Made by a program: the position numbers and the translations under genes. The notes below the pieces were generated by a model. That model worked only from the letters and a program-made list of their open reading frames with translations, was not told the DNA's origin and did not search any database. 30,385 nucleotides of DNA from a virus: positions 1 to 30,385 of IMG/VR virus record IMGVR_UViG_3300005913_000051; one strand, given 5' to 3'. How positions within the stretch are numbered: the first letter of the stretch is position 1; each line of letters opens with the position of its first letter. Shown here piece after piece: positions 6,001-30,078 of the stretch.

Positions 6001-9000
6001 ATTGTATATCCTGTTCCAATGACATCAGTTAAATTATCTAACGTAGAGTAGTCAGCTATGTCATATATTGTTGTATCTACGTCATCAATGTTAACATATC
6101 CAGCAGTTAAGATGTCGTTGTCATAGTTACTGTGGCTATCTCTATTGATGGCAATATTGCCATTGAATTTAGCGCCAGACTGATCAAAGAATTTATAAAG
6201 TTGGCCTTGATTAAATGTGTCTAATCCATTACCTTCGTTAGCATTATCAGTTCCAACAAATTTTATAGTAGCTGGATTAACTGATATTGCTTTTTCGTCA
6301 AGAGCAATTTCAACATAAGGATTAGAAGTTATCGCGCCATACTCGCCTGTGCGAATCGCCCATTCTTCATAATAATTAATATTGCTAGAAAGTGTATTAA
6401 AGTTTGCTTTAGTTAATGCATCAATCGCATTCTTTGTTCCTTTTTGTTTTATATAACCTTTATAAAATTCAATTTGTGTTGTTTCAGTTAACCCTAGGTC
6501 GTCTAGATACTGTCTTGGTTTATATCCAATTAGACCGTGACTGTATGCCATCTGATCTTTATCGCGTATCTTGCCGTAGCTGTCATAGTAACTTTGAGAC
6601 TCAACAGCAGTAGTTGAGAAGTTACTGAGCAATCCAGATTTTATTTCTGATTTAGGTATCTGTTTCCAGGTAGTAAAATTAAATTCTGTCGTGCCGGGAA
6701 CATTTTTTAAAGCTACATAATATTGCTCTTTGTATACGATTAGGTCGCCTTTAAGATAGTCAACCCCGACTTGCCATTCTGGTACGGTTTCGTTGTTGTA
6801 AACAAATCCTGGAGCATACATGCTACCATCCCAAAGGTCTGTCTTTTGCCCAATGAGTTTTAATCTAAATTGTCTGTTGCCTAACTCAGGACGATATATC
6901 ACATCATTGAACACTGTGGTGTTGTCAAAGACTAACACATGCTCATACTGCACCAGGGCCAATTCAACCAGGGCCAATACATTGTCATCTGATAATGTAA
7001 CACTAAAGTTATTAGAACTACGTGTAATCTGATATCCAGTATTTTTTACTAGATTAAAATTTTGATCTACGATTTTACTACCGTGTTGACTGTCTTCGAT
7101 GCCGTCAACTATGTTACCTTGTGTTACTACTTTTATACTATTTGTAACTGGACTTAATACCAATATGCTACCTGGTTTCCATCCTTGCTGTGCCCAGAAT
7201 AAAAATTCTCTAACACTTAATTTCCAGTTACGTGTTTCACCGAGATCACCATCTCTATCATTGAAGGTAAAGCCCTGTGCTATGAGATGTCTCTCATAAC
7301 TTATAAGGAAGTCAACTACCTGCTGTATGGTCTTAAATTCATAACCGTATGGTACTGTTAATTTTACAGACTGATAGTCATTGAAGACATATCCTGTTTC
7401 GTCTTGAACCGTAATGCCATATCCATTATTATTAGCAATACTGGGAATGATAGTGAAGTAAGGTTTGTGTAAATCATAGCCTCGCACACTAAAGCCATTT
7501 GTTGATTTTTCAACAATTACAGCACTGTATGTTAATTTGCTAAGTGGTGTTGACTTATTCAATAAGACGTCATAGTTCTCATCTGGAATCATGATACTAG
7601 CATTGGTGCTTGTTGGTGAGCTTTGCTCTGCTAGAACCTGTAAATATTTCTTATCACTGAATCCTGCCATCTTATATGCTAATTTAACATTATAGTTTTC
7701 TAGCATTGTATTAATTTTTACTGACGGTGTTATGCCAAGATTTTTTAAATAGTCAGCGATCCAATTTAGATAACCGGCGCCCCTGTTAATGACTGTTGGT
7801 AATAATGGGTCTATATAACCATTGTATACTATCTCATCCTGTCTAACATGATGATTATTAACAAATGTCAGATATTGGCGTAAGCTAGTATTGTAGCGAA
7901 TATTATACGTGTCAATGAATCTGCCAAAATACACTGCTGGTTTAAGTAATGCCATAGCTTGTTGCAAGACATATGGATAATCACTACTGCTTCTCCACGC
8001 CCATTCAACTGGCCCCAATTGTCCGGTTGCCCAAGATGTTGCGGCATCTATAGAATTTGATGCTAACGCCACTACTTTCTCTGGACTTAATAAGTATCCG
8101 TTTTGATCTACTGGAATAATCTGTGACAGTCCTGGACGAGCATAGTTTGTATCTATACCAACCCCCGATCCCATGTCAACCAACGACCGCGGGCCACCGT
8201 ATATTCGACCCGCTTCTAGATCATCCCACAACAGTTTGTTACCGCCTGTGTATGGTCCTGCGCCATAACGGTCTTCCCACCAATTTGGTTTTGTTGAGAA
8301 ACCTAACATTTCCCATGGTCGGATATGTGGATATATGGTGTCATAGAAGTATTGATAAACTGCACGCCAACTGCCTGGCAGGTATTCGCCGTCGATGCGA
8401 TCAACAAATCTTGAATAGTTCCATGTAAACGGTTCGTTACTTTGGAATGAACTGTTAGTACTGAAATCAACTCTGTTCCTGCCAACCCAGGTCATAAACC
8501 CTTTTGATGTAACGTTCCACACCTCTGAGTAAGAATATCCAGATTCTCTGAACTTGCCTGGCATTGCAGAAAGCAATTCATTTTGATATGTATTGCTGTC
8601 TGGTAATTTAATGTTGTTGTAGATACGTTTTTCTAATTCAAGAAGCAGGGTATCTCTGTAATCACTAAATGCAGGTGTAATGCTACCGTCGTGACCACGT
8701 ATCACAGTGATCGCAGTTCTATAAGTGTCATCAGTAATAATCTCTGGCATAAACTTTGGATATGTGCCAAGTTTCGACGGAGTTTCTGGTATGTAAGAAC
8801 CATCAGTATTTGCATATTCAACCATGGTTATTACGTCACCAACAGCAAATGTCACATAATTAACATCAAAGGTAACTGCTGGCCTTGTGGCATCAAATGA
8901 GTAGTCTTTGCCTAATATTAATTGTGTGCCATTTAGGTATACTAACACTGCTTGGTTAGTTAATGTTGTGGACGAAAATACATTTGTAATTTCATAACTA

Positions 9001-12000
9001 AGAACAAACGGATCAAACACACTGTATGTTATAACGTTCTTCAATGTTCCGTATGGAATCATGTCACTGTAATGCCATGGTGATGAAACATTCTTATTAA
9101 TGTTTATTTGTGCAAGTATGATGTCAACGCTAGCGACAGGGTCTGACGAATCTATGCCTGGAGATGATACCGCCAACTCAAGAAACTTGTTCTTAAATTT
9201 TGCATACTCTCTCTGTGCATATTGAATTGCATCAACAAAGTTTGCTTTGTCATCTATCAGGAATAGTTCAGCATAAGGAATAGGTGCACTGTGTTGTAAT
9301 ATACTACCACCTTGGCCAGTGATGCTTATGTCTCTTAGATTTGATAGCCCAAGGATGTCTCCTACTAATGCCGTGCTATTTGTTCCTAATGCCACAACGT
9401 GATTTCTAATTTGTCCAAGCGTCAATGACGTTATATCAGTATTCTGTGCATTTAGATCTAAGTTTAAAGGAACTTGATAGTATGCTTCTTTACTAATTTG
9501 ATCACTATAAACTAATGCATTAATAGTATCACCTTGGACCAACGTAGTATTCAGCGTTATCTTGTTTGTAGCTGATATAGTCCACTGTGTCTGTTTTAGT
9601 AGTTTTTGATTCTGATAAACTTTAACATAAGGAATCGTATCTGAGAACCCATGTACATTTTGATTTTTTGGCGTAACGTCTAGTGCAAATAGATTATTTG
9701 TTCCGTCGTATTCAAATGCGAATATCTGATATTGCTTGCTAGGTTCGTTGACTGTGTGCCAAGTATTTTTAGGTGTGGTTGTCCTATTAGACTGTATAGA
9801 CTGCAAGAATCCAATATTAGTACTTTTTTCTGTAACGTCTTGGTCAATCACATAATCAAACTTATCAGTATTAAAATAGTTAGAGAAAAGAATATCACCT
9901 TGACTATTAAAACTCCTATAGCTTAACGGAAAGCCTAAAACACTGTCGTTGGTTCCTGTTGTTCCACGTTGATATCCAAATAATTTTGTTCCAACAAAAC
10001 TACTGCGTGGATAATAGTCAGTGTTTGACAAACTTCTATTATTATTATCGTAAACATCAAACAATGGATCTTGTTGTGCCGCTGTTTTTTGTTGACTTTC
10101 ATTCCACTGTGTTCCGTTATACCACCAGGCACTGCCTTTGTATCTACCGGCACCAACTACTACTGAGTCCCACTCTTCCGCATCACCATCGTCTGCTTTA
10201 GTTAAGTTGATATGGAATGTGCCTTCTGGTGCACCATCTGAGTCAACTTCATATTGTACTAAATTAAGAACATATATTTTATTTTTTACCAATGGATCAT
10301 TGTCGTTAGCAAATAGTACACGCATGCCATCAAACAATGTGATGCCAAATGCTGTTGTTAATGTTTTACCTTCTAGCTCTGTAAAAGCGTCTGTGATTAC
10401 AGTGTCTAAAATATCAATATGCCGCTTACCAATTCGTCCATGGTTGAATAGTTGCAGGTCACCTTCAAATTGTATTATAGGACGTTGAGCACGCAAGTCT
10501 TGTGAGAGAACTAATATCTCAGAATTGTAAGTTGCTGTGGCTTCAATGACTGCAGAGTGTACCCAGCGATTACTACGTGACCATGCATTTAGATCTAATG
10601 CGTCTCTTTTTATTGTGATATAGTCTGGAAATACTTTATCCGGAAAAGCCTCGTAAACAGTTGTTCCTGAGGCTATGCTGTTGTGCCCACTTACTGCTTG
10701 TCCCTTATCAATGTTTGCTATTGAGTCAAGGGTAGTTATCTTTGTTGACCCGATCGCTATATCGGTGTAAACTTCAATTGAGCTAGTGCCAACTGTAATT
10801 ATTGTACCTCCGGGGATTATTCCTGTTGTCGACTTTGTCAGCATTACACGTTGCAACGGGTAGTTTGTTGCTACTTCGTCGTTGTACAACTCAGGGGTTA
10901 CTAACAATGTTTCGTCGACTAATCTAATTGCTTCTCCAACATTTTCTACATAGTATGTTTTTCCTTGGTATGAGGCAGGAGTAACATCATTGTCAAATTG
11001 TATTTTTAATCCACTGGTAAATTCTATACCATTGGGACTGGTATATGTAGACTCATTTAAAATATCATTGTCAACGTCAATGGTAAAATTATTAAACTCT
11101 ACGATTTTAATCTTGGTGTAGATGTCTGCTCTCTCACCGTCTTGGATCCATAGCGTATCTAAGATACTGGATATAACTGGAACTGGTTCGAGGAAAGCGG
11201 TATATTCTTTGTAAAATTCTTTGTTTACATAGTTTATGCCTGACTTGACGTACACTTTATTATCAAATGGTATACTAGTTGTTGGGTATATATTAATAAG
11301 CTGATCACTACCGGAAGTAATTAGTTGTACTTCCCACACGCCGTATCTACTTCCCTCAGGAACTATGTCCCCAAAATCAAATTCAACTGATTCACCACTA
11401 TTCTCGTATGCTACTGTCCACGCATCTTCTACATTCGTTAATTGGTCCTGTAAAACAAATACTACAGTCTTACCGTCTAACTGACCAGCAAGTCCAGCAA
11501 ACTGTGGAAATTCTTCTAAGAAAGAACTTAGTAATCTATTTTGTACTTTAGAAAATGCCAACGGAAGTGCATAGTCAACAGTTGCTACTGTATTTTGTGC
11601 TAGGAATCTATCTTGGGCATCTGATTGTGGCACTGTAAATGTTACTGTACCAACGTTAGCTCCGTTGTTTTCTACTCCCAACACCCCTCTACTACTAATT
11701 GTTGGAGTAACATTAATTAATCCATCTATGCCTAGTTCTGTTTGAATCCAAAATCCAGCTGACTGATTTACTGTAAAGGTGTATGTGCCACCTCGTGCCA
11801 ATATCAATGTGTTGTTCTGTACTCCTTCAGAAGTAAAGTCATATTGATTTTGGTTATCGTTGCGAGAAACTGTATAACCTTTGATTAGTTCAACTCCACC
11901 TGTGTTTACTTGTACTGTGGATGGGCCATTAGGCAACCAATAATATTGTCCAAAATTTACAAACTTGTCATATGACATCTGTGGGTCAAAGCTGTAGTAT

Positions 12001-12338
12001 TCGCTGGCAAATAACCTACTGTGGTTATTAGTGTATCCACCGTAGTAGTTAACCTTATTAAGGAAATCTAAATAACTAGCAAAGAATGTTGTTTCGTCTT
12101 TAGTATTTTTTATTACTGTAGTCGGTTCTAACTGATAGTCCTGACGTTTAGTTGTTCCTTCAGTAACATAACTATCACCTTTCTGATATGTTGGAGAAAA
12201 TTGACGACCAATATAGCCATAAAGAGTTGTTAGTGATGGTTCACTAACTAGCTGGTCTACTGTAGCATTTAGAAACTTTTCGTTAACATCAGTTCTAAAT
12301 ACACCAGGAAGTAAATTTATGCTTTTTCTTGCGGCCAT
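1..12338 (-). CDS. Giant baseplate/tail structural protein, 3' end beyond window
   Basis: One reading frame runs without a visible stop from an ATG at 12338 down to base 1, at least 4112 codons; the C-terminus lies outside the window. I checked the frame at the start, near 8.2, 6.5 and 5.1 kb and at the left edge, and it is the same throughout. The N-terminus reads MAARKSINLLPGVFRTDVNE. Most of the chain is Asn/Thr/Tyr/Gly-rich, typical of phage fibre and baseplate beta structure. Seven FG-GAP-like repeats (pattern FGxSI...VGAPG...VYVY) lie at about 3.27-5.48 kb. A repeated Gly/Thr module (AGSGYTSIPTVTISGGG and a diverged second copy) lies at about 1.06-1.26 kb. The gene follows gp53, gp25 and gp6, the position of the T4 wedge protein gp7, so an expanded gp7-type wedge or fibre-bearing protein is my inference. 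No secretion signal or membrane segment is seen. No strong ribosome site is visible; the gene starts 29 bases after the gp6 stop. Confidence 0.85.
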   Translation of the reverse strand, partial: MAARKSINLLPGVFRTDVNEKFLNATVDQLVSEPSLTTLYGYIGRQFSPTYQKGDSYVTEGTTKRQDYQLEPTTVIKNTKDETTFFASYLDFLNKVNYYGGYTNNHSRLFASEYYSFDPQMSYDKFVNFGQYYWLPNGPSTVQVNTGGVELIKGYTVSRNDNQNQYDFTSEGVQNNTLILARGGTYTFTVNQSAGFWIQTELGIDGLINVTPTISSRGVLGVENNGANVGTVTFTVPQSDAQDRFLAQNTVATVDYALPLAFSKVQNRLLSSFLEEFPQFAGLAGQLDGKTVVFVLQDQLTNVEDAWTVAYENSGESVEFDFGDIVPEGSRYGVWEVQLITSGSDQLINIYPTTSIPFDNKVYVKSGINYVNKEFYKEYTAFLEPVPVISSILDTLWIQDGERADIYTKIKIVEFNNFTIDVDNDILNESTYTSPNGIEFTSGLKIQFDNDVTPASYQGKTYYVENVGEAIRLVDETLLVTPELYNDEVATNYPLQRVMLTKSTTGIIPGGTIITVGTSSIEVYTDIAIGSTKITTLDSIANIDKGQAVSGHNSIASGTTVYEAFPDKVFPDYITIKRDALDLNAWSRSNRWVHSAVIEATATYNSEILVLSQDLRAQRPIIQFEGDLQLFNHGRIGKRHIDILDTVITDAFTELEGKTLTTAFGITLFDGMRVLFANDNDPLVKNKIYVLNLVQYEVDSDGAPEGTFHINLTKADDGDAEEWDSVVVGAGRYKGSAWWYNGTQWNESQQKTAAQQDPLFDVYDNNNRSLSNTDYYPRSSFVGTKLFGYQRGTTGTNDSVLGFPLSYRSFNSQGDILFSNYFNTDKFDYVIDQDVTEKSTNIGFLQSIQSNRTTTPKNTWHTVNEPSKQYQIFAFEYDGTNNLFALDVTPKNQNVHGFSDTIPYVKVYQNQKLLKQTQWTISATNKITLNTTLVQGDTINALVYSDQISKEAYYQVPLNLDLNAQNTDITSLTLGQIRNHVVALGTNSTALVGDILGLSNLRDISITGQGGSILQHSAPIPYAELFLIDDKANFVDAIQYAQREYAKFKNKFLELAVSSPGIDSSDPVASVDIILAQININKNVSSPWHYSDMIPYGTLKNVITYSVFDPFVLSYEITNVFSSTTLTNQAVLVYLNGTQLILGKDYSFDATRPAVTFDVNYVTFAVGDVITMVEYANTDGSYIPETPSKLGTYPKFMPEIITDDTYRTAITVIRGHDGSITPAFSDYRDTLLLELEKRIYNNIKLPDSNTYQNELLSAMPGKFRESGYSYSEVWNVTSKGFMTWVGRNRVDFSTNSSFQSNEPFTWNYSRFVDRIDGEYLPGSWRAVYQYFYDTIYPHIRPWEMLGFSTKPNWWEDRYGAGPYTGGNKLLWDDLEAGRIYGGPRSLVDMGSGVGIDTNYARPGLSQIIPVDQNGYLLSPEKVVALASNSIDAATSWATGQLGPVEWAWRSSSDYPYVLQQAMALLKPAVYFGRFIDTYNIRYNTSLRQYLTFVNNHHVRQDEIVYNGYIDPLLPTVINRGAGYLNWIADYLKNLGITPSVKINTMLENYNVKLAYKMAGFSDKKYLQVLAEQSSPTSTNASIMIPDENYDVLLNKSTPLSKLTYSAVIVEKSTNGFSVRGYDLHKPYFTIIPSIANNNGYGITVQDETGYVFNDYQSVKLTVPYGYEFKTIQQVVDFLISYERHLIAQGFTFNDRDGDLGETRNWKLSVREFLFWAQQGWKPGSILVLSPVTNSIKVVTQGNIVDGIEDSQHGSKIVDQNFNLVKNTGYQITRSSNNFSVTLSDDNVLALVELALVQYEHVLVFDNTTVFNDVIYRPELGNRQFRLKLIGQKTDLWDGSMYAPGFVYNNETVPEWQVGVDYLKGDLIVYKEQYYVALKNVPGTTEFNFTTWKQIPKSEIKSGLLSNFSTTAVESQSYYDSYGKIRDKDQMAYSHGLIGYKPRQYLDDLGLTETTQIEFYKGYIKQKGTKNAIDALTKANFNTLSSNINYYEEWAIRTGEYGAITSNPYVEIALDEKAISVNPATIKFVGTDNANEGNGLDTFNQGQLYKFFDQSGAKFNGNIAINRDSHSNYDNDILTAGYVNIDDVDTTIYDIADYSTLDNLTDVIGTGYTIWTAKDFTGKWNVYRVSETNNQVVLLTNALDGYVTWTSSGQHGLVKDDIFLVRGFDVNFDGFYQVYKTPDLKRVTAQYLGNPDNLDDLNTSNGTGMLFVLDSLRFQYMEDSRVFGLTDPKQGWRVGDKIWIDNDGETTTAQGQPYDVPSGGWKVYEKTKPWDYKESLLKSSSEYATNGYGQSVKFSYDGLLATVGSPFANTVPYYSGGAEVTTGRVNTFDKNYAGNLVAGTSLVPAAGNAIVVTSEFGHSIDQAVEKVAIGAPGSYGNIGLVYLYNRPAGTTSFNEPQVLWSKDVTTTGDRFGSSISLSEYGEWLYVGAPGNDRVYVYGLNTHVSSEQDIVSINNRNTLRLDGNVAAFVGDYVTYPLTGATARVISAGNTIIGSSWASNIVVDTAVGFDIGNVAANISINSIDSSLYAETLYSVSNLSVIGTSFTPSVANAADSLLVRNSNRTFIPYLDYTVSGTSISFKENLTQDTYVITQAPYYVLANVIQGESGSAFGSSMDSSLDGAQLGVGAPNANVFVAGEWVQGAGAVYVYDRVIEAFASTGTLTYTTTGTIDLVHKVSIDGITVEDYLPPTIGGTTLTFINPPALGQVVYIETNQFNLLEQLIGVDSLTGGTDAIQTGAAFGTDLTICSNNCAIYVGAPYYDNGTAYNTGAVWKFHNRGRLYGTNTGEALNPTFTPGNTIRLDNYEITLTGTTLDSLVDDINTADILGVTATNANGYLKLDSDSTVAKNLLRILSGSSNGVLQDAEMKVFAFMQIIVSPHNAQGEYFGNKVVLAQNAYMLVIGSERGTTKADATFDDSELTLDDDSTIFTDDINGSGSVYVYELYDDPRNEVENPGRYAFAQQLNLPDIDGNVLTPTDRLNSGDRFGAAIDVMGGQIVVSAPGDDTQGIDTGSIYVFSNPAMTRGWNLIRYEQPRVDVDTVNRMFLYSKVSNTILTNLEFIDPAKGKILGVADQEISFKTEYDPAVYNRGAKANSAFHWSDSQVNQVWWNLGQVRFVDYEQSNLEYRSINWGRLFPGSLVEICEWVESTVLPSQYVDAGYDGIPKYADNSNYVEVSRVNPISNIIESVYYFWVTNKTSLTGNDETRNLSIQTIANYIANPKSQGIAYSAIIQNNAIIVYNVSEYLSAQNTILHLDHDLLKNSSLIHSEYELIQQGNPVDLIPSKIVNKMIDSLSGIDANGRTVPDPTLNPADRYGIDIRPRQTIFSDRLKAMGDLVTYVNSILITKPIARQYDLTQMLSEEAKPSIKLGEYDIAIPTEVELPYINTSDLLTGYKVLVEQDTTQDNLWVLYELQADNTWALAKIQSYKTSLYWSYVDWYAAGYDANEVIEYVVDTLPDALKLSASIGDEVLVKVTTATGGGWNLLTVTNDGTYATVGIQNGTIQLSKSLGNFSDNGIGLGNQGFEANRFDQSPNIETRYIINALRDDIFVGELQGEFNKLFFVMINYLFTEQQYVDWVFKTSFISVTHYLRELGQPANYIKDNLTYYENYIEEVKPYRTKIREYLTNYTRNDSFGGDLTDFDLAPYYDQDLKQFRSPSGEYVAKDSSLWSTGYLNNNGGLVNIDYPNWYNNRTFVVDNIIITNAGSGYTSIPTVTISGGGSNVQATATATINGDTGSVTSITVVTEGKDYVTTPTITINGTTVSNVTIIGGNANIISNTYTVNSTNGLFVGMSANTAFTANTIIENIDRANLKIVMTTANTSVFTNTAISFGFTTTTQQGTPATAYAVLKNNKIRTFDTKLKFDRISYGTSVQPWQTNTFFESNTIVSYGNVGYQVIANVTTSNSFVTSEYTVYSAADFDNANDRILAYYSPQSDMAAKDLNQLIPGIEYPGVQIQGLNFNQQPGFSGEILANVTFSGAHGLVAGHTGNVIIQPEADMYLNFLADHIFTVDGSTSAYPLYSVFTANIGDFITQPSTGANAIVYGNAIGATQGNVISSATAYFIKNNDFTFNTTGNIFINGDTLLSSNVFAGNTSTWSNVSIKPISSTIALTTA
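1060..1262 (-). repeat. Repeated Gly/Thr-rich beta module inside giant protein
   Basis: On the minus strand this stretch encodes AGSGYTSIPTVTISGGG, then a short linker with ATATATINGDTGSVTSI, then EGKDYVTTPTITING. The second half is a diverged copy of the first. This kind of (G/D)YxxxPTxTI repeat is common in phage and bacterial surface proteins. It is the clearest internal repeat in the last third of the visible chain. Confidence 0.55.
3270..5480 (-). repeat. Seven FG-GAP-like repeats inside giant protein
   Basis: Read on the minus strand, seven segments match the FG-GAP pattern, in order: NGFGQSVKFSYDGLLATVGS (about 5.42-5.48 kb), SEFGHSID...VAIGAPGS...VYLY (5.17-5.27), DRFGSSIS...LYVGAPGN..VYVY (5.02-5.11), SAFGSSMD...LGVGAPN...VYVY (4.38-4.52), AAFGTDLT...IYVGAPY...VWKF (4.00-4.14), EYFGNKVV...LVIGSE...VYVYE (3.50-3.70) and DRFGAAID...VVSAPGD...IYVF (3.27-3.41). 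FG-GAP repeats form beta-propeller blades, as in integrin alpha chains, and seven is the number in that propeller. Spacing is irregular (about 55 to 200 residues), so insertions between blades are likely. Positions are approximate. Confidence 0.7.
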
Positions 12339-16186: not shown

Positions 16187-18241
16187 TTATCCTGCTTGAA
16201 CAGCCTGCACTTGCGGTGCTAGTGTTGCTACTGCAAATTTGCCTTTTTGGAAATAGGTGTTACCAGTTGTTCCGTTAGCATCTGCTCCACCACCGGTCGT
16301 TCTCCATTTTTTAGCACCACCAGCACCTAATAAATGGCTAACTGCTAATATGCCGCCAACTTCTTCAGGTGAAGTGTCTTGTGCTATCGTTCCATTGTTT
16401 AACAATGATGTATAATTTTTCTTAGTATATCCAACCATGGCACTTTCTTGTATAGTTTCGTTGCCTAAGAACGTTGCTCGATCTGTGATTCCGTCCTTGC
16501 CTGTCCATGAGTTAGGATTAGTTAGATCGGCGTTGCTGGTTACTGACGATTTGATGTATCCCTCGTCGATTAGAGCTTGGTAGCCCATTTGATACTTGCC
16601 CACATAGCCTAATTCATTGACTGCGGCATAATCACCACTGCTCTCACTCTTGCCTATCTGTGCCATGTATGCCGTTAGTTCATCTTTGCTGAGATTACCT
16701 ACCGTACCGGTTGGCACTGGTTGGTTTCTAATATCATACGTTCCACCTGGGTTGACTACTTCGGTTCCGGCCACATTTTTCGTAGCATCAAACGCACCTT
16801 TGAATGTTGGTTGTGCTGTGATTCTTGAATTAGAATTTTCTGGGTTGAAGAATCTTGCTTGTTGTCCTCTCGGGTAAGGTTCGTGCGTTGGTGCTGACGT
16901 ACAAATAGTGTTAAGTGATCGTGGAGTCGGTTGCCAAAAACCGCCCTTCAATGTAGTGTCGCTCAGATTATACTCTTTCAGGCCTCTCACGGCATCGACC
17001 GTTTCTGTTCCACCACTGTTCTGTAGTATCTGCGAGCCTTCTAATGCTAATACACCACCTGCTTTAACTGATATCTTAGCATCAGCTTGTATTTTAAATT
17101 GTCCGCCGGATTTAAATGCTGTAGTTCCTGTGGATGTTACTGACAGTTTGTTCTGTAGTAAAGTGGTCTCTCCTGTTTCTATCTGTAGCTTGTTCTCTGC
17201 TCGCATCCTGATAGCACCGCCCGACTCAAAATTGATGTTGCTGTCGGAATGGAAATTCATAGTTCCTTCACTGCGTACATTAAATCCGCCCTTGCTGTAC
17301 ATGCTGATCGTACCGTCCTTGTCCATCTCAATCCATGTGTTTCCGTTAGCATGCGATAGATATATCATTTCGTTAGTGTCGTGGAACATTATTTGATGTC
17401 CCTTAGCTGTTCTCAATCTTACCAATTGGTCTACGCCCAAGTTTGTTCCATCATCCATAACAAAGGTATGTCCACCTTTGCGTGTTTTAACTTTATGGTA
17501 TTCACTGGTCAGGGTGTTATTGTTTAGCTTGGTTAGATAGTCTGGATCTTCAGCAGGGTCATTTGTTGGGCGACCCGGAGTGCTGATGCCAAATACTGCA
17601 CTAGGAGTTTCTCGCTGGCTACTGCTGGATATAGATCCACGTATAGAGTCAGTGTCTAACCCCTGTTGCTTCAATATATTATATTGAGGAATATGTATAG
17701 GTTTAGCTATATTATAGAATGCAGAATTAGTTATATTTTCAGTAACATTTTCGTTAAATTCTACAACTGGTACGTTGACATTACTAGTAAACTTGTTTGG
17801 GCCCAATCGCACGTTCGTACTGCCTGCTAGTCCTGGCAACATGTGATGACTAAGATTAGGATTTACGCAACCCATCCAATAGCCACGCAACGGGTCTCCC
17901 GCAATGAATAATACTATAACATGGACGCCAATGTCTGGTGGCACCATCCACATACCGTAGGTATGGGCCACACTGGTAAAAGATTCGTGATCATCACTTA
18001 GATCAGGATTTGTTGTGTACCCCATAAATGGACTAGAATAACTAACTGTGCGCCAATTTAACGGTTCGCTTTCAACACCACCTAGATCTGGTATCCACAC
18101 TTGCACTCGACCACTACGTGTTGGATCTAAATTATTTTTAACTATACCAATATATGGATGTGGGTCAACACGAGTGGCGGCTGTATCCTCTCTCCGTAAG
18201 TTTCTAGTTACCTTAGTGCCTGATCTAAAATCTATTGCCAT
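16187..18241 (-). CDS. gp5: Baseplate hub needle gp5-like with C-terminal muralytic domain
   Basis: Central spike of the tail that pierces the envelope and digests peptidoglycan. Residues about 28-135 form the OB-fold (PYIGIVKNNLDPTRSGRVQV, then GMWMVPPDIGVHVIVLFIAG). Residues about 275-410 are a repetitive beta-helix (IYLSHANGNTWIEM, FNVRSEGTMNFHSDSNINF, QFKIQADAKISVKAGGVL), the needle. Residues about 517-675 look like a lysozyme/transglycosylase fold: IGKSESSGDY with candidate catalytic Glu533, then GYVGKYQMGYQAL. In T4 gp5 (575 aa) the lysozyme lies between OB-fold and needle; here it follows the needle. The gene starts 3 bases after the 854-aa gene, so the two are probably co-translated. 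Confidence 0.85.
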   Translation of the reverse strand: MAIDFRSGTKVTRNLRREDTAATRVDPHPYIGIVKNNLDPTRSGRVQVWIPDLGGVESEPLNWRTVSYSSPFMGYTTNPDLSDDHESFTSVAHTYGMWMVPPDIGVHVIVLFIAGDPLRGYWMGCVNPNLSHHMLPGLAGSTNVRLGPNKFTSNVNVPVVEFNENVTENITNSAFYNIAKPIHIPQYNILKQQGLDTDSIRGSISSSSQRETPSAVFGISTPGRPTNDPAEDPDYLTKLNNNTLTSEYHKVKTRKGGHTFVMDDGTNLGVDQLVRLRTAKGHQIMFHDTNEMIYLSHANGNTWIEMDKDGTISMYSKGGFNVRSEGTMNFHSDSNINFESGGAIRMRAENKLQIETGETTLLQNKLSVTSTGTTAFKSGGQFKIQADAKISVKAGGVLALEGSQILQNSGGTETVDAVRGLKEYNLSDTTLKGGFWQPTPRSLNTICTSAPTHEPYPRGQQARFFNPENSNSRITAQPTFKGAFDATKNVAGTEVVNPGGTYDIRNQPVPTGTVGNLSKDELTAYMAQIGKSESSGDYAAVNELGYVGKYQMGYQALIDEGYIKSSVTSNADLTNPNSWTGKDGITDRATFLGNETIQESAMVGYTKKNYTSLLNNGTIAQDTSPEEVGGILAVSHLLGAGGAKKWRTTGGGADANGTTGNTYFQKGKFAVATLAPQVQAVQAG

Positions 18242-23121: not shown

Positions 23122-24612
23122 ATGCTTGACCAATATCAAGTATTAGACAGCATAGTATTAGAAGACTTGTTAACTCAAGAATCTTCTAGTTTTTATCGTT
23201 TCCTAAATTCAGTAAAACGTGATATTTTTCACAATCCTAAACGAATTGTTTTTTATAATTACACCCCGTTACCCTCGGATCTGATCCAGCATATCAAAGA
23301 TACAATAGTTTACTTAGATATTCCAGACTTTTTTATTTTAGTAGTAGATAGTCATCAAACTTATCAATTTGCCGATTACGAGTTTAAAAAATCTGATACT
23401 ACTGAACACAAGCCTGTATTTAACATAGCTAATTCAATGTGTGCTCATGCCTGGGCAGGTATCCATGTGTGGCCTGACGGAACTTGTGGTGCTTGCTGTG
23501 ATTCTACTCAAAAAATTACTAAACCCAACGGAGAGTATTATAATATCAAAGAAAATACCATAGAACAGATATTAGATAGTACATGGATGCAGGATCTGAG
23601 ACAGCAATTCAGAGAGAACAAAAAAGCCAATAACTGCCAGATTTGTTGGCAAAGAGAAGAACTACAATTAGATAGTAAGAGAACGCTAACTCCTCATAAA
23701 CTTGAAAATATCTATGGATTAATTAATTGGGAGCAAGAAGGTCAGTTAGCATTTCTTGGCGGCCATATGGGAAATTTATGTAACTTAAAATGTCGGATTT
23801 GTAGTAGTGCATTTAGTTCGTCTATTGCAAACGAATTACTGAGTGAATTACCAAGAGTTGATCGAAAAAAATCTAAACACTATACTATCTCACACGAAGC
23901 TTCTTGGGCATCTGGCACAACTTTTTGGGATCAAGTTAAACAACTAGCACCAAAAATTAAGAATTTTGAATTCTTAGGTGGCGAACCTTTTCTGTTAAAA
24001 CAAAATAATGATTTCATCGAATTTCTAATAGAAAATGATCTTGGTCACGATACTATATTTTATTTTAATACTAATGGTACGCAGTATCCTAAAATTTTAG
24101 ATCATGCAGATCAACTAAAGAAATTAGAAATCACCATTAGTATCGACAATATTGACGATCGATTCGAACTTGAAAGATCTGGTGCTAAATGGGCAGATGT
24201 AGAAAATAATATAAGAAAATTCGTTAAGCTAGGAAAAAAAATAAAAAGTCTTAAAATCGATATTGCCATCACTGTGAATATACAGAATGTCTTTTATCTG
24301 CCAGAAATTATTGATTGGGCAAATTTAATTGAGGTCGATAGTTATTATTTAAACTATGTTACTGCCCCAACGTACCTGGCTGTTGATAGCTTAACTGCAC
24401 AAGCTAAAGAATTAGTACTTGATAAATTATCTAATTATAATTTCAGCTCAGATGATCAAGAAAAGGTCAGAGGAATCATTGATAAAATATCAAACATTAA
24501 ACCAGGTGACGGCAAAGAATTTTGCAAAGAGATGCGTCGATTTGATCGACTACGTAATCAAAATTTTCTAAAAACTCACACAGATATTGCCAAAGCAATG
24601 GGATACGGGTAG
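23122..24612 (+). CDS. Radical SAM protein with N-terminal twitch-like cysteine domain
   Basis: A 496-residue radical SAM enzyme. The 4Fe-4S motif is CNLKCRIC (Cys220, 224, 227), followed by LGGEPF at 285-290, the SAM-binding GGE loop. Before the barrel, residues 107-175 hold a second cysteine set: Cys107, DGTCGACC (122, 125, 126) and NCQIC (172, 175). This looks like a twitch/SPASM auxiliary-cluster domain placed N-terminally rather than in its usual C-terminal place. Proteins with this N-twitch order are known from phages and some bacteria, but I know of no assigned reaction. The C-terminus has a basic segment (EMRRFDRLRNQNFL). It sits between gp55 and gp47, which lie in the same neighbourhood in T4 without it. 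By eye it is more A/T-rich than its neighbours, which may mean later acquisition. Confidence 0.85.
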   Translation: MLDQYQVLDSIVLEDLLTQESSSFYRFLNSVKRDIFHNPKRIVFYNYTPLPSDLIQHIKDTIVYLDIPDFFILVVDSHQTYQFADYEFKKSDTTEHKPVFNIANSMCAHAWAGIHVWPDGTCGACCDSTQKITKPNGEYYNIKENTIEQILDSTWMQDLRQQFRENKKANNCQICWQREELQLDSKRTLTPHKLENIYGLINWEQEGQLAFLGGHMGNLCNLKCRICSSAFSSSIANELLSELPRVDRKKSKHYTISHEASWASGTTFWDQVKQLAPKIKNFEFLGGEPFLLKQNNDFIEFLIENDLGHDTIFYFNTNGTQYPKILDHADQLKKLEITISIDNIDDRFELERSGAKWADVENNIRKFVKLGKKIKSLKIDIAITVNIQNVFYLPEIIDWANLIEVDSYYLNYVTAPTYLAVDSLTAQAKELVLDKLSNYNFSSDDQEKVRGIIDKISNIKPGDGKEFCKEMRRFDRLRNQNFLKTHTDIAKAMGYG

Positions 24613-24645: not shown

Positions 24646-25662
24646 ATGGCAAATCTATTTAAGAAAGCGGCAATTCTCACTGACATTCACTTTGGCTTAA
24701 AATCCAATTCAACGACTCATAACGAGGATTGTTTGAACTTTGTCAAGTGGTTTATTACCAAAGCAAAAGAAGAAGGGTGTGAAACTTGTCTGATGTTAGG
24801 TGACTGGCACAACAACAGGGCCGCAATTAATATCGTTACACTCAACTATAGTTTAACAGCTTTGGAACTATTAGGACAGGCATTTGATCGTGTGATGTTT
24901 ATTCCTGGCAACCATGACTTGTACTACAGAGACAAACGTGACATACAATCAGCTCAATGGGCACGCCACATTCCAAACGTTGAAATAGTTAACGACTTTT
25001 ACAAAGAAGGTGGAGTATCGTTTGTGCCTTGGTTGGTAGGTGATGATCACAAGAAGGTACAGAAGATTGATGCCGAGTACATGTTTGGACATTTTGAACT
25101 TCCTAGCTTTTACATGAACGCCATGGTACAGATGCCAGACGTAGGAGAGATTAACAGAGATCACTTTAAGGGCGTTGGGCACATGTTCTCAGGACATTTC
25201 CACAAACGGCAGACTAACAAAAATATTACCTACGTTGGTAATTGTTTCCCACACAACTATGCAGACGCTGGAGATGATGACAGGGGTATGACTATTATTG
25301 CCTGGGGCGAAAAGCCAGTGCATCATTCTTGGCCAGATCAACCTAGATATAGAGTTTACGATTTGAGTGCTGTACTTAAAACACCCGAATTATTGCTTCA
25401 ACCCGGAATGCACTGTCGAGTTAAGCTAGACATTGACATTACGTATGAAGAAGCAACGTTTATCAAAGAAACATTTGTTAGCACTTACAAACTGCGTGAG
25501 CTATCACTGCTACCAGTCAAAGAAGTCACCATCGGTGATGACATACAGTTAGGCAACGTGGCATTTGAATCGATTGACACTATCGTTACCAATCAGCTGA
25601 CTAGCATACAAAGCGACACATACGATCCCAATTTGTTATTGTCAATCTACAGAGATTTATAA
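24646..25662 (+). CDS. gp47: Recombination endonuclease subunit gp47 (SbcD/Mre11 family)
   Basis: Nuclease subunit of the gp46/gp47 complex (Mre11-Rad50 type) that resects DNA ends for recombination-dependent replication and host DNA degradation. All metallophosphoesterase motifs are present: DIHFG (residues 13-17), GDWHNNR (52-58), GNHD (88-91), GHFE (148-151) and GHFH (183-186). Length is 338 residues, like T4 gp47 (339). The ATG at 24646 puts the first metal motif at residue 13, as expected for the family. There is no ribosome site and a strong promoter ends just before it. The stop directly abuts the gp46 start codon, so the two subunits are translationally coupled. Confidence 0.95.
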   Translation: MANLFKKAAILTDIHFGLKSNSTTHNEDCLNFVKWFITKAKEEGCETCLMLGDWHNNRAAINIVTLNYSLTALELLGQAFDRVMFIPGNHDLYYRDKRDIQSAQWARHIPNVEIVNDFYKEGGVSFVPWLVGDDHKKVQKIDAEYMFGHFELPSFYMNAMVQMPDVGEINRDHFKGVGHMFSGHFHKRQTNKNITYVGNCFPHNYADAGDDDRGMTIIAWGEKPVHHSWPDQPRYRVYDLSAVLKTPELLLQPGMHCRVKLDIDITYEEATFIKETFVSTYKLRELSLLPVKEVTIGDDIQLGNVAFESIDTIVTNQLTSIQSDTYDPNLLLSIYRDL

Positions 25663-27435
25663 TTGTTTAAAATAAAGAACCTCACAGTTAAAAACTTTAT
25701 GAGTGTTGGTAACTCAACGCAAGCGGTGTCGTTCGATCGCGATGACCTCACCTTAGTACTAGGCAAGAATATAGATCTTGGAGGCGATGATAGTGGCGCC
25801 CGTAATGGAACTGGTAAGACCACTATCATCAACGCCCTTTCATATGCGTTCTATGGCGTAGCATTAACTAACATTCGTCGAGACAACTTAGTCAATAAGA
25901 CAAATGCTAAAGCCATGCTGGTTACTGTAGAGTTTGAACACAATGGTATTGAATACAAGATCGAGCGTGGACGTAAGCCCAACATATTAAAATTCTACGT
26001 AGGTGGTGAGGAGCAGGAAGAGAAAGATGATAATGCCCAAGGAGACTCTAGAGAAACACAAAAAGAAATAGAACGCCTGCTTAACATGAAACACGAGATG
26101 TTCAAACATGTTGTGGCCTTAAACACTTACACGGAACCGTTCCTTTCACTTAAACCTAATGACCAGCGTGCCATCATCGAACAACTATTAGGTATTACAG
26201 TACTAAGCGAAAAAGCCGAGACCCTTAAAGAAGAACAAAAAGTTACTCGTGATGCTATCAAGGAAGAAGAATACAAGATCAAATCGATCCAAGAGTCAAA
26301 CAGCAAAATGCAGGAGCAGGTTGAAAGCCTAAAACGTAGACAACTCATGTGGCAAAAGAAACATCAAGAAAGTCAGGAAGAGATACTGTCGGCATTAGAT
26401 GAACTGCTTAAGATTGACATTGATGCTGAAATTGAACAGCACAAAGAACTTGCAGAATATGCAAAAAAAGAAAAAGAAATTGCAGAAATAGCAAATTTAA
26501 TTGTACGTATTACAAAAGATGTGCAAAGAGAAGACAGTAATCTGCAAAAACTACAAAAAGAAATAGATCAGCTTAAAGAACATAAGTGTTATGCATGTGG
26601 GCAAGAACTACATGACGGAAAACACGAAGAAGTTTTACAAGGCAAAGAAGACAGCATAGTTGAGGCACAAACATTACATGCTAAACACCAAGGTGAACTC
26701 AACGAATTAGAAACTGCGTTGGCTGAGCTAGGCACGTTGGGAGATAAACCCAAAACATTCTATTCTAATCACGAAGATGCCATCCATCATCGAAGTTCGG
26801 TAGCCAACTTAGAAACACAATTAGTCAGCAAGGGAAAAGAAGAAGATCCTTATGTTGACCAAATAGCAGAGATGGAAGCCACAACTGCTGAAGAGATCAA
26901 TTATGATGCTATCAATGGATATCAGCGTATGCAAGAACATCAAGACTTCTTGTACAAACTATTAACCAACAAAGACAGTTTTGTGCGTAAACGAATTATT
27001 GATCAAAATTTGAGTTATCTAAATGCTCGCCTAGGACAGTATCTTGATAGGATAGGTCTCCCCCACTCAGTTACCTTCCTGAATGACCTAACCGTTGAGA
27101 TCACTGAACTAGGTAGAGATTTAGACTTTGATAACTTGTCAAGAGGCGAGCGTAACAGATTGATCTTGTCATTGAGCTGGGCATTCCGTGATGTTTGGGA
27201 AAGCCTGTATCAACCAATTAACTTGTTGTTTATTGATGAATTAGTGGATTCGGGTATGGATGCGTCGGGTGTTGAAAATGCCATGAGTATCCTCAAGAAA
27301 ATGGCACGCGAACATAACAAGTCAATTTGGTTGGTATCACACCGAGACGAGCTAGCAGGACGAGTAAATAACATTATGACTGTGATCAAAGAAAACGGAT
27401 TCACTATGTATGACACTGATGTTGAGATGTCATGA
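25663..27435 (+). CDS. gp46: Recombination endonuclease ATPase subunit gp46 (SbcC/Rad50 family)
   Basis: SMC-like ATPase partner of gp47. The Walker A is GARNGTGKT with Lys52 (residues 45-53). Two long coiled-coil arms flank a zinc hook CYAC (Cys309, Cys312). The ABC signature is LSRGERNRL from residue 492, Walker B LLFIDE at 521-526, and the switch histidine is in LVSHRDE (His560). Length is 590 residues (T4: 560). The start is TTG at 25663, with no gap after the gp47 stop; translating from it gives MFKIKNLTVKNFMSVG, matching the family N-terminus, so it is the real start. An extra acidic/Gly stretch (DLGGDDS) sits just before the P-loop. The stop overlaps the next gene. Confidence 0.95.
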   Translation: MFKIKNLTVKNFMSVGNSTQAVSFDRDDLTLVLGKNIDLGGDDSGARNGTGKTTIINALSYAFYGVALTNIRRDNLVNKTNAKAMLVTVEFEHNGIEYKIERGRKPNILKFYVGGEEQEEKDDNAQGDSRETQKEIERLLNMKHEMFKHVVALNTYTEPFLSLKPNDQRAIIEQLLGITVLSEKAETLKEEQKVTRDAIKEEEYKIKSIQESNSKMQEQVESLKRRQLMWQKKHQESQEEILSALDELLKIDIDAEIEQHKELAEYAKKEKEIAEIANLIVRITKDVQREDSNLQKLQKEIDQLKEHKCYACGQELHDGKHEEVLQGKEDSIVEAQTLHAKHQGELNELETALAELGTLGDKPKTFYSNHEDAIHHRSSVANLETQLVSKGKEEDPYVDQIAEMEATTAEEINYDAINGYQRMQEHQDFLYKLLTNKDSFVRKRIIDQNLSYLNARLGQYLDRIGLPHSVTFLNDLTVEITELGRDLDFDNLSRGERNRLILSLSWAFRDVWESLYQPINLLFIDELVDSGMDASGVENAMSILKKMAREHNKSIWLVSHRDELAGRVNNIMTVIKENGFTMYDTDVEMS

Positions 27436-28064
27436 TGAATGTATTTTTAACAGGCGGAAGTTCGGGCATTGGTCAGGAATTTAAACAACATTTAGAATCT
27501 AATAACTATAGTGTTACTGCACCAACACGTCAAGAGTTAGATCTATCAAATTTTAACATTGACACTGTTGATCTTAGAGAATACGATTATCTGATATTAT
27601 GTGCTGGTGTAGATACCAACGGAAGGGCTCCGTTCGTTAATATGAAGCCGACTGATTTCATAAACACAATAAATGTAAACCTTACCGCTAATATTATTCT
27701 AATCCACAAGTATGTTCAACAGAGATTATTTAAACCATGGAGCAAGGTTGTTGTTCTTGGGAGCCAAGTTGTTGACGGATATTATCCAGGGTACGGAGTT
27801 TATGGCACATCTAAACATGCGCTGGATGCATTTATGAGTACTATCAAATACGAATTAAAAGACAAGAACATAGGATTTACAATAATGCACCCCGCACTAA
27901 CCAAGACCAATTTTAATCGCAATCGTGGAAATGTGCCGGCTGACAAGGTCAATGACTTGTATGATCAAATACCTCACATGCAGACTAGTGATCTTATACC
28001 TGTGTTTGATCAGATCTTAAATGATCATAAGAATCTTATCACTAAGATAAGTATGACCGCATGA
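27432..28064 (+). CDS. Short-chain dehydrogenase/reductase
   Basis: A 210-residue SDR enzyme, NAD(P)H-dependent oxidoreductase fold. The cofactor loop is TGGSSGIG (residues 7-14), CAG at 57-59 takes the place of NNAG, Asn83 is in NVNLTA, Ser111 follows VVVLG, and Tyr124-x3-Lys128 (YGTSK) completes the catalytic set. It is short for a classical SDR (about 250), mainly at the C-terminus, but keeps all active-site residues, so it should be active. Its ATG overlaps the gp46 stop (ATGATGA), and its own stop overlaps the start of the following radical SAM gene (ATGA). Coupling on both sides suggests the product works with the radical SAM enzyme. The substrate cannot be told from sequence. Confidence 0.88.
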   Translation: MMNVFLTGGSSGIGQEFKQHLESNNYSVTAPTRQELDLSNFNIDTVDLREYDYLILCAGVDTNGRAPFVNMKPTDFINTINVNLTANIILIHKYVQQRLFKPWSKVVVLGSQVVDGYYPGYGVYGTSKHALDAFMSTIKYELKDKNIGFTIMHPALTKTNFNRNRGNVPADKVNDLYDQIPHMQTSDLIPVFDQILNDHKNLITKISMTA

Positions 28065-29164
28065 ACTTAATATATCCATGGCAACTATATCATTGGCATT
28101 TTGGCATCACCAGCAAGTGTACCTTAAAATGTCCGCGTTGTCCTAGAACAGAATATCAGGAGCAGTTAAAATTAAATTCTGATATTACATTAGCTACCTT
28201 CCAAAAAATACTGTCCCCCAACCTGCTTACTAACACTGTTAAACGTATCACCATGTGTGGTGATCTTGGTGATCCAATATATAACAAAGAATACTTAGAA
28301 ATATGTAGGTACATCAAATCTACTAACCCCAACATACATCTGTTTACAATAACCAATGGCAGTTACAAGGATGTTAACTGGTGGAAAGAATTTGCTCAGA
28401 TTAGTAACAGTCGAGACACTGTTAATTTTAGTATAGACGGGTTTGACGAAGAGTCAAACAACATCTACAGGATCAATAGCAATTGGGACAGTATTATGAC
28501 AGGCATAGAAATTATGGCTCAGCAGTCTGATGCATTTGTTAATTGGGCTACAATTATTTTTAAATACAATCAGGATAAAATTAATAACATAGTTGAACAG
28601 GCAAGGAAACTAGGATGTGATGCTGTGCAATTAACTAAAAGTACCAAATTTGGTAGCAAGTATGACGAAACTTATGGGGGGTCTAATGATCCTCTAGAGC
28701 CTAGGCCAGAGTTTATTAGTACTACTAATAGATACGAACGGATAATGATTCCTGTTACATCAAGGGCGTTAGATAACACTGACTACATAAAAACTAAAGA
28801 AATTCATTTTAATAAGATTCAGGATAAGTACAATCGAGCTATAACACCTTTGTGCCTAATAGGTACACAAGGAATGTATGTCAATGCAAATGGAATACTA
28901 TATCCATGTAGTTGGAAAGGGTTACCTTACAGTAGTTTAACATCCGACGCCAAACACATAAGTTTTGAAGATGACTTCTTTACCGTAAATCAATCGCGGT
29001 TAAATTTAAATCAAAGAACGTTAGAAGAAATATTAAATGATCCGATTTGGGAATCCTTTTTTAATCATTTAGATAACAAAGACACCAGCTGGACTGAATG
29101 CCAATATAAATGCAGTTCAGATATAGTTGATCATGATTATGCTGTTGGTTATGAAACTAATTAA
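28061..29164 (+). CDS. Radical SAM protein with SPASM-like C-terminus
   Basis: A 367-residue radical SAM enzyme. The cluster motif CTLKCPRC has Cys20, 24 and 27, near the N-terminus as usual. MCGDLGDP at 65-72 stands where the GGEP loop is found. VNFSIDG at 121-127 is a later barrel strand. C-terminal cysteines Cys265, Cys283 (YPCSWKG), Cys347 and Cys351 (ECQYKC) look like ligands of an auxiliary iron-sulfur cluster in a SPASM-like domain. SPASM enzymes commonly modify peptides or proteins, but some act on sugars or cofactors. The start overlaps the SDR stop by 4 bases (ATGA at 28061-28064). It is not a close copy of the other radical SAM protein in this window, which has the auxiliary cysteines on the opposite side. 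Confidence 0.85.
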   Translation: MNLIYPWQLYHWHFGITSKCTLKCPRCPRTEYQEQLKLNSDITLATFQKILSPNLLTNTVKRITMCGDLGDPIYNKEYLEICRYIKSTNPNIHLFTITNGSYKDVNWWKEFAQISNSRDTVNFSIDGFDEESNNIYRINSNWDSIMTGIEIMAQQSDAFVNWATIIFKYNQDKINNIVEQARKLGCDAVQLTKSTKFGSKYDETYGGSNDPLEPRPEFISTTNRYERIMIPVTSRALDNTDYIKTKEIHFNKIQDKYNRAITPLCLIGTQGMYVNANGILYPCSWKGLPYSSLTSDAKHISFEDDFFTVNQSRLNLNQRTLEEILNDPIWESFFNHLDNKDTSWTECQYKCSSDIVDHDYAVGYETN

Positions 29165-29244: not shown

Positions 29245-29433
29245 ATGGCGCAGACAGGAAGAATACATCCAGGAAGACGCAAAGCAAATCCAGAAGCAAC
29301 ATGCAATGGTAAGCCACGAATCAAAGGATGGAGCAAGGCAAGACTAGAAGAAGCGATAGAAAAAAGTTCTCGCAACAAAGAGAAAGCAAGGTATAAAAAA
29401 GAAGTAGCAAGACGTTTCACAATAGCAGTATAA
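29245..29433 (+). CDS. Small basic protein of unknown function
   Basis: A 62-residue, strongly basic protein (many Lys and Arg) with an N-terminal Gly/Pro/Arg part (GRIHPGRRKANPEATCNGKP) and a helical, charged C-terminal half (KARLEEAIEKSSRNKEKARY). A good ribosome site AAAGGAG (29231-29237) lies 7 bases before the ATG, which supports expression. The charge suggests binding to DNA or RNA, but I do not recognise a family. It could also be an arginine/lysine-rich virion or nucleoid protein. It is followed after 22 bases by a histone-like gene. Confidence 0.7.
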   Translation: MAQTGRIHPGRRKANPEATCNGKPRIKGWSKARLEEAIEKSSRNKEKARYKKEVARRFTIAV

Positions 29434-29455: not shown

Positions 29456-29629
29456 ATGTCAATTCATACAGATATTTTAGCACAATTAGACTCATATGTG
29501 GCTGAAAGTGCCAAGTTTGAAGGCGGTAATAAATCGGCGGGTACTAGGGCACGTAAAGCACTAGGTGATCTAGCTAAACTAGCAAAAGCACGTCGAGCAG
29601 AAATTCAAGATAAGAAAAACGCAGGATAA
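29456..29629 (+). CDS. Small histone Hc1-like DNA-binding protein
   Basis: A 57-residue protein with an acidic N-terminal helix (HTDILAQLDSYVAESAKFEG) followed by GNKSAGTRARKALGDLAKLA and KARRAEIQDKK. The GNKsAgtRaRkal...la pattern resembles the N-terminal part of chlamydial histone Hc1 and the small histone-H1-like proteins found in aquatic T4-like phages, so DNA compaction is a reasonable role (inference from similarity by eye). AAGGA lies 9 bases before the ATG. The stop overlaps the next start (TAATG), coupling it to the endonuclease gene. Confidence 0.7.
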   Translation: MSIHTDILAQLDSYVAESAKFEGGNKSAGTRARKALGDLAKLAKARRAEIQDKKNAG

Positions 29630-30078
29630 TGTCATCATACGATAATCCTTGGACTTATAACGGTACTGCCTTTGAGTCTGAGGACATCGGTGACAACTAC
29701 GGGTTCGTATACAGAATCACAAACACAGAAAACGGACACGATTACGTAGGTCGTAAATTTTTCTGGACTATCAAAAAGAGACCACCTCTAAAAGGCAAGA
29801 AAAATAAACGTAGAGAAACAGTTGAAACAGACTGGAAAACATATTACGGATCATCCGAAAGGTTGGTTAGAGATGTCGAAGAATTAGGAAAAGAAAAGTT
29901 CACTCGTGAAATACTATATTTGTGTAAAACACGTGGTGAGACCAACTATATGGAGGCGTATTTTCAGTTTAAAGAAGATGTCCTATTGAGAGATGATAAC
30001 TACAATGGGATCATTAATATTAGACTTGGAATAGGTTCCGTAAAAAATATTCTAGTAGAAGATTTAAAAAAAATATAG
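29629..30078 (+). CDS. GIY-YIG-type endonuclease-like protein
   Basis: A 149-residue protein with a GIY-YIG-like N-terminus: GFVYRITNTENGHDYVGRKF at residues 25-44, where GFVYRI and DYVGRK occupy the GIY and YIG positions. A basic loop follows (KRPPLKGKKNKRR), then WKTYYGSS, VEELGKEKFTREILYLC and a family Glu near NYMEAYFQF. Relatives occur widely in T4-like phages, mostly as stand-alone genes of unproven function; homing or host-DNA cleavage are both possible. It is coupled to the upstream histone-like gene by TAATG, and a candidate structured RNA begins about 25 bases after its stop. Confidence 0.75.
   Translation: MSSYDNPWTYNGTAFESEDIGDNYGFVYRITNTENGHDYVGRKFFWTIKKRPPLKGKKNKRRETVETDWKTYYGSSERLVRDVEELGKEKFTREILYLCKTRGETNYMEAYFQFKEDVLLRDDNYNGIINIRLGIGSVKNILVEDLKKI

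Follow-up and report, generated by a model that had tools for sequence, protein, structure and literature searches.

We examined the viral record IMGVR_UViG_3300005913_000051 from position 1 to 30,385 (this whole stretch of 30,385 nucleotides is hereafter called the window), focusing on two adjacent plus-strand genes that encode a short-chain dehydrogenase/reductase (SDR) and a radical S-adenosylmethionine enzyme (rSAM). The SDR gene (27432–28064) encodes a compact protein of 210 amino acids (aa), predicted to be of the NADP(H) type, and the rSAM gene (28061–29164) a protein of 367 aa. An ATGA overlap joins the two (joint DNA gcATGAac), while the upstream gene, gp46, overlaps the SDR start at the joint gtcATGATGaatg. 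Because two in-frame ATGs (ATGATG) lie at this joint, SDR starts at 27432 and at 27435 are both possible. The original prediction, an earlier reading of the same DNA, had described an intact SDR and rSAM, linked with one another and with gp46 through 4-base overlaps, and its coordinates, motifs and cysteines were all confirmed.

The SDR matched the Pfam adh_short model above the Pfam cut-off (E = 5.7e-22). It carries the elements of a classical SDR, i.e., TGxxxGxG (TGGSSGIG, residues 7–14), the catalytic Asn and Ser, and YxxxK (YGTSK, residues 124–128), all of which are invariant in the partners of the phage clade termed A below. Specifically, N83, S111, Y124 and K128 do not vary in the SDR partners of 34 phage rSAM homologues. 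Arg33, also invariant, follows the second strand, a position that fits NADP(H) use. The structure predicted for the SDR (predicted local distance difference test, pLDDT, of 90) had matches dominated by solved SDR folds.

For the rSAM, the Pfam Radical_SAM model (PF04055) returned E = 2.1e-9 and 38.2 bits against a curated cut-off of 29.5, and the core motif CTLKCPRC (C20xxxC24xxC27) is that of the radical SAM superfamily. Four more cysteines are found toward the C-terminus, in the layout C265-x12-G278-x4-C283 ... C347-x3-C351. A SPASM motif comprises seven cysteines (CX9-15GX4C-gap-CX2CX5CX3C-gap-C), and its truncated, single-cluster form is termed Twitch (PMC6231123). The window rSAM has only the CX12GX4C half and C347-x3-C351, i.e., the CX9-15GX4C half with two additional cysteines near the C-terminus, in line with a truncated SPASM that has ligands for one auxiliary cluster, and it scored just above the cut-off of the short Pfam SPASM model (22.8 versus 21.5). 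Since there are four cysteines instead of seven, the C-terminal domain is by its sequence a four-Cys Twitch with a putative single auxiliary cluster, not a full SPASM, and the "SPASM-like" label of the original prediction does not hold in the strict sense. The proposal also depended on these residues being conserved, and they are: the three core and four C-terminal cysteines are all invariant among the 34 phage homologues, and the C-terminal four are kept in 6/6 aligned cellular orthologues as well. Compared with its nearest relative, the window shows a non-synonymous divergence (dN) of 0.09–0.12 against near-saturated synonymous divergence (dS), so that the intact, conserved residues are not a product of chance.

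Co-inheritance of the two genes in phages

A first scan yielded 55 viral loci; scanning with a profile gave 226 relatives, and 80 of these were kept. After duplicates were removed, 57 rSAMs from two sister clades (A and B) had room upstream. At every one of these 57 non-redundant phage loci, an SDR lay directly upstream of the rSAM (clade A, 36/36; clade B, 21/21), as it did for two additional rSAM pieces of middle-band score, while it was present for 0/19 more distant phage rSAM paralogues. The 4-base overlap between the two genes was nearly always retained, and the pairing was kept even as the phage SDRs diverged down to about 14% identity. Clade B SDRs, at about 172 aa, retain the Ser and YxxxK and were recognized by profile only (HHalign E = 7e-22). 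A deeper phage clade carries the pair in reverse order, with the SDR downstream of the rSAM. Inserted genes were seen between gp46 and the SDR, but never between the SDR and the rSAM.

Across 49 loci, rSAM and SDR distances were correlated at 0.88, and at 0.87 with gp46 held constant, compared to 0.45 for rSAM and gp46 and 0.35 for the other correlation with gp46. Linkage of adjacent genes can by itself yield part of such co-inheritance, which counts against reading the pattern as functional. The control here is gp46, which is equally close and yet does not track the pair. A related alternative is that two unrelated cargo genes came to lie side by side by chance, and the gp47–gp46–rSAM region is indeed a cargo hot spot. 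Given the uninterrupted retention at 57/57 loci, the occurrence of the pair in phages and mostly also in bacteria, and its persistence in both gene orders, we consider this very improbable. Overall, it is well supported that the SDR and rSAM are a true co-inherited unit, i.e., a dedicated pair, where the concern attached to the original prediction had been that the genes might lie apart in most related phages. We found no description of an SDR-rSAM phage pair in the literature searched.

Cellular counterparts and a candidate sugar-editing pathway

The strict phage profile had no matches in bacterial genomes, a broader profile recovered relatives in Bdellovibrionota, and a third was too diverse for searching; a Bacteroidota sample held no strong relatives of the rSAM, a negative obtained without a control. 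The tree places phage clade A+B close to the Bdellovibrionota clade, and an unpaired phage clade falls between the two. Among eight strong Bdellovibrionota orthologues, five adjoin a compact same-strand SDR, overlapping it in four of the five cases, and the other three have an SDR behind a twitch rSAM, a facing SDR, and no SDR, respectively. In genome G097 (L232), the pair lies at the end of a polysaccharide locus consisting of a PF01943 Wzx/flippase-type protein, an NAD-epimerase, two GT4 glycosyltransferases and PhyH, followed by rSAM-SDR. In G131 (L231), a GT2 gene lies upstream of the pair within the same run, and on L249 more distant cellular members are found among GT4, GT28 and carbamoyltransferase genes. 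In phages, two loci with no adjacent gp46 (L102 and L121) have a GT8-like gene, below the Pfam cut-off, ahead of the pair. The genes that follow the pair at these loci include one whose product matches a sialyltransferase PHROG (E = 2.2e-5) and, just downstream of the pair, one for an IscA/HesB-type Fe-S carrier (L102 7412–7747, L121 7427–7780).

We tentatively favor a reading in which the SDR and the Twitch rSAM constitute a two-enzyme tailoring module, with rSAM chemistry followed by SDR reduction, likely on a sugar. Both the chemistry and the substrate are what we infer, and the sugar target, suggested mainly by the Bdellovibrionota counterparts, is the weakest step for the window. The 5'-deoxyadenosyl radical of the rSAM would remove a hydrogen from an unactivated, hydroxyl-bearing carbon of its substrate, most likely a nucleotide-bound or polymer sugar. 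Either the four-Cys Twitch cluster would then accept the electron, i.e., a BtrN-like dehydrogenation, or water would be lost in an AprD4-like dehydration. The SDR would reduce the resulting carbonyl with NADPH to an epimerised or deoxygenated sugar, and the product in the phage may be an altered surface or virion glycan. A more specific version of this reading appears rather doubtful to us, namely that a large-phage lineage and Bdellovibrionota share a radical sugar-editing module that deoxygenates a surface sugar, or inverts its stereochemistry, in a previously undescribed way, by which the infecting phage would remodel glycans of the host or the virion.

Several known systems can be compared with this candidate module. 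In BtrN, four cysteines fully ligate the Twitch cluster of an enzyme performing a two-electron alcohol oxidation (PMC9012708). The window rSAM resembles the Twitch alcohol dehydrogenases, including BtrN and SpeY, in having four cysteines able to ligate one auxiliary cluster, and matched the BtrN structure 4m7t with a Z score of 13.7, but identity is about 11% and the window system adds an SDR. AprD4/AprD3 combines an rSAM with an NADPH-dependent reductase for the C3' deoxygenation of apramycin (PMC5461906). As there, the window rSAM is encoded with a dedicated reductase and, by analogy, radical oxidation or dehydration would precede carbonyl reduction; the window pair, however, comes from phage and Bdellovibrionota, its rSAM has a conserved four-Cys Twitch, and the kinship proposed here is one of logic. 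Radical-SAM-rich cassettes also occur in Campylobacter phage CP220 (PMC2853527), where sugar-transferase genes lie nearby, and in pelagimyophages (PMC7029224), yet identity to the window rSAM is 22–30%, and neither CP220 nor Mosig has an annotated SDR next to the matching rSAM; a tblastn search of named phages with the SDR gave no match.

The structure predicted for the rSAM (pLDDT 84) resembles radical SAM enzymes with auxiliary clusters. Its top Foldseek match, along the full length, is BlsE, a cytosylglucuronate decarboxylase acting on a sugar nucleoside (E = 6.8e-10), although identity to the window rSAM is 14–16%. To our knowledge, BlsE has no SDR partner. Other observations weigh against a reductive module acting on sugars. 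Fold Z scores mix sugar and peptide enzymes (SuiB 17.6, SkfB 16.6, BlsE 16.6, DesII 15.9), and the best PDB profile match of the rSAM is the peptide enzyme SkfB. In the window, no sugar gene adjoins the pair, nor does one lie directly beside it in most phage loci. Finally, the catalytic Tyr is missing from three cellular SDR partners, so that the partner is possibly not a reductase in every case; the Tyr is replaced by W in L206 (6629–7195), L in L230 (2233–2808) and W in L232 (8724–9281), with the Ser and Lys remaining.

The prominence of SkfB and SuiB, both enzymes of ribosomally synthesized and post-translationally modified peptides (RiPPs), in the profile and fold comparisons would suit a peptide or protein target, with the rSAM acting as a maturase that generates a radical on an amino acid within a phage or host protein, and the SDR reducing or protecting the product. 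A B12-rSAM that recurs beside the pair (c14) also scored best against a RiPP C-methyltransferase model, albeit far below its cut-off. Conversely, only 19 residues precede Cys20, and therefore no RiPP recognition element (RRE) is fused to the rSAM, while PqqD was found in 0/12 related records, which may be fragments, under a working control. The 62-aa basic open reading frame (ORF) at 29245–29433 on the plus strand, once suggested as a possible partner, occurs only in the window's subclade and was not judged a module member. Within 1.5 kb downstream of the pair, the loci share no conserved small ORF, which speaks against a cis-encoded precursor peptide, although a distant or unannotated one may exist. 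With no RRE, PqqD or conserved precursor found, a peptide target is less likely than a sugar, and we regard it as unlikely. The structural comparison of the rSAM to peptide maturases versus sugar or nucleotide enzymes, which had been proposed as a check, produced a fold ranking that separates neither group and leaves room for unlisted families. Of the targets originally put forward (a nucleotide, a surface sugar or a peptide), the peptide has thus lost ground, and the sugar is favored by cellular context.

Phages carry many radical SAM genes of obscure role, among which the window rSAM has a constant partner, a defined clade and deep conservation. This constant partner, along with cellular relatives that lie within or close to polysaccharide loci, turns a guess about a lone enzyme into a concrete two-enzyme question. 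If a sugar is the target, radical-based sugar editing would join the ways in which phages alter glycans, and phage cassettes would be linked to Bdellovibrionota envelope chemistry.

gp46, the cargo slot and neighboring genes

The pair belongs to a plus-strand gene run longer than first described, which comprises a late sigma factor, an N_Twi_rSAM, gp47 (SbcD-like subunit, 24646–25662), gp46 (SbcC-like recombination subunit, 25663–27435), the SDR and the rSAM. Among the 57 loci, gp46 immediately precedes the pair in 47 and is separated from it by an insert in five; in the other five, the available upstream sequence contains no gp46. Hence, the pair does hold together away from gp46, with 10/57 pairs not adjacent to it. 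Many gp46 relatives, often even at 50–70% identity, are without the pair, and gp46 distances do not follow those of the pair; on these grounds, we rejected a functional tie to recombination via gp46/gp47. Of the two-step pathway made together with the DNA-recombination machinery, as initially envisaged, the dedicated pair stands (57/57 loci, invariant cysteines) and the coupling to recombination falls. From the non-adjacent pairs and the many gp46 relatives lacking the pair, we conclude that gp46 is the usual docking site for the cassette, not a functional partner or a module member, and that joint expression is a matter of address.

This bears on a second alternative, in which the pair modifies a nucleotide, DNA or RNA, the product being, e.g., an antiviral-type nucleotide or a modified base. 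The best matches of the rSAM by fold and by profile include viperin-like nucleotide enzymes, the pair is co-transcribed with DNA genes, and phage hypermodification pathways with rSAM enzymes are known. However, the pair does not follow gp46, and the cellular pairs adjoin glycosyltransferases. The 5-hydroxymethyl-dU kinase family was found in 0/12 related records, but its control matched nowhere either, and this does not amount to a real test. Taken together, modification of a nucleotide, DNA or RNA seems improbable, and the sugar-tailoring module remains our favored reading.

The slot around gp47–gp46 acts as a cargo site whose metabolic genes vary by relative and include AMP-ligases, B12-rSAMs and twitch rSAMs. 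A B12-binding rSAM (about 520 aa) with a small partner (about 130–180 aa) recurs beside the pair in many relatives (L012 1905–4012, L013 5520–7411, and others), and one relative (L045 3206–5567) has genes for an AMP-binding ligase and a binding protein of the TctC type inserted between gp47 and gp46. Such cargo would fit a role in auxiliary metabolism, in which a host metabolite or cofactor, e.g., amino-acid-like or lipid-like, is the substrate and the neighboring AMP-ligases and epimerases belong to the same pathway. Single relatives do carry AMP-binding ligases, a TctC-like protein, 2-oxoglutarate oxygenases and SGNH-type ORFs, either close to the pair or in the gap from gp47 to gp46, and in the Bdellovibrionota contig L229 the gene directly upstream encodes a beta-eliminating lyase. 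Still, these neighbors are sporadic and vary by phage, whereas the pair is constant, and we give this alternative a low probability, below that of the module acting on a sugar.

The second radical SAM protein of the window (23122–24612, plus strand) is of the N_Twi_rSAM type (NF033640, 273 bits versus a cut-off of 170) and possibly a pathway partner of the pair. Members of this family are radical SAM proteins with a twitch-type cluster domain, as is the paired rSAM, and frequent Bdellovibrionota neighbors, but their twitch is N-terminal and the domain order differs. In contigs from Bdellovibrionota, too, N_Twi_rSAM genes are found alongside the rSAM; L228, L233 and L248 are densely packed with radical SAM and twitch rSAM genes, with up to ten matches to the family of the paired rSAM in one genome. 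Another contig, L205, is filed under a Pacearchaeota metagenome-assembled genome and resembles a phage contig (Clp-like ATPase, lysozyme-like protein, small membrane proteins); it is probably misbinned.

Downstream of the pair, a 57-aa protein (29456–29629) matches the histone H1-like Hc1 (Pfam E = 1.7e-13), and an Hc1-like protein is kept at this side of the pair in several related phages. It is followed by a GIY-YIG segE-type endonuclease (29629–30078), whose family (phrog_447) is also labeled NAD synthetase in PHROGs, which looks like an annotation error. At the other end of the window, a 4112-aa ORF on the minus strand (3–12338) runs off the window, near a baseplate-type gene (16187–18241).

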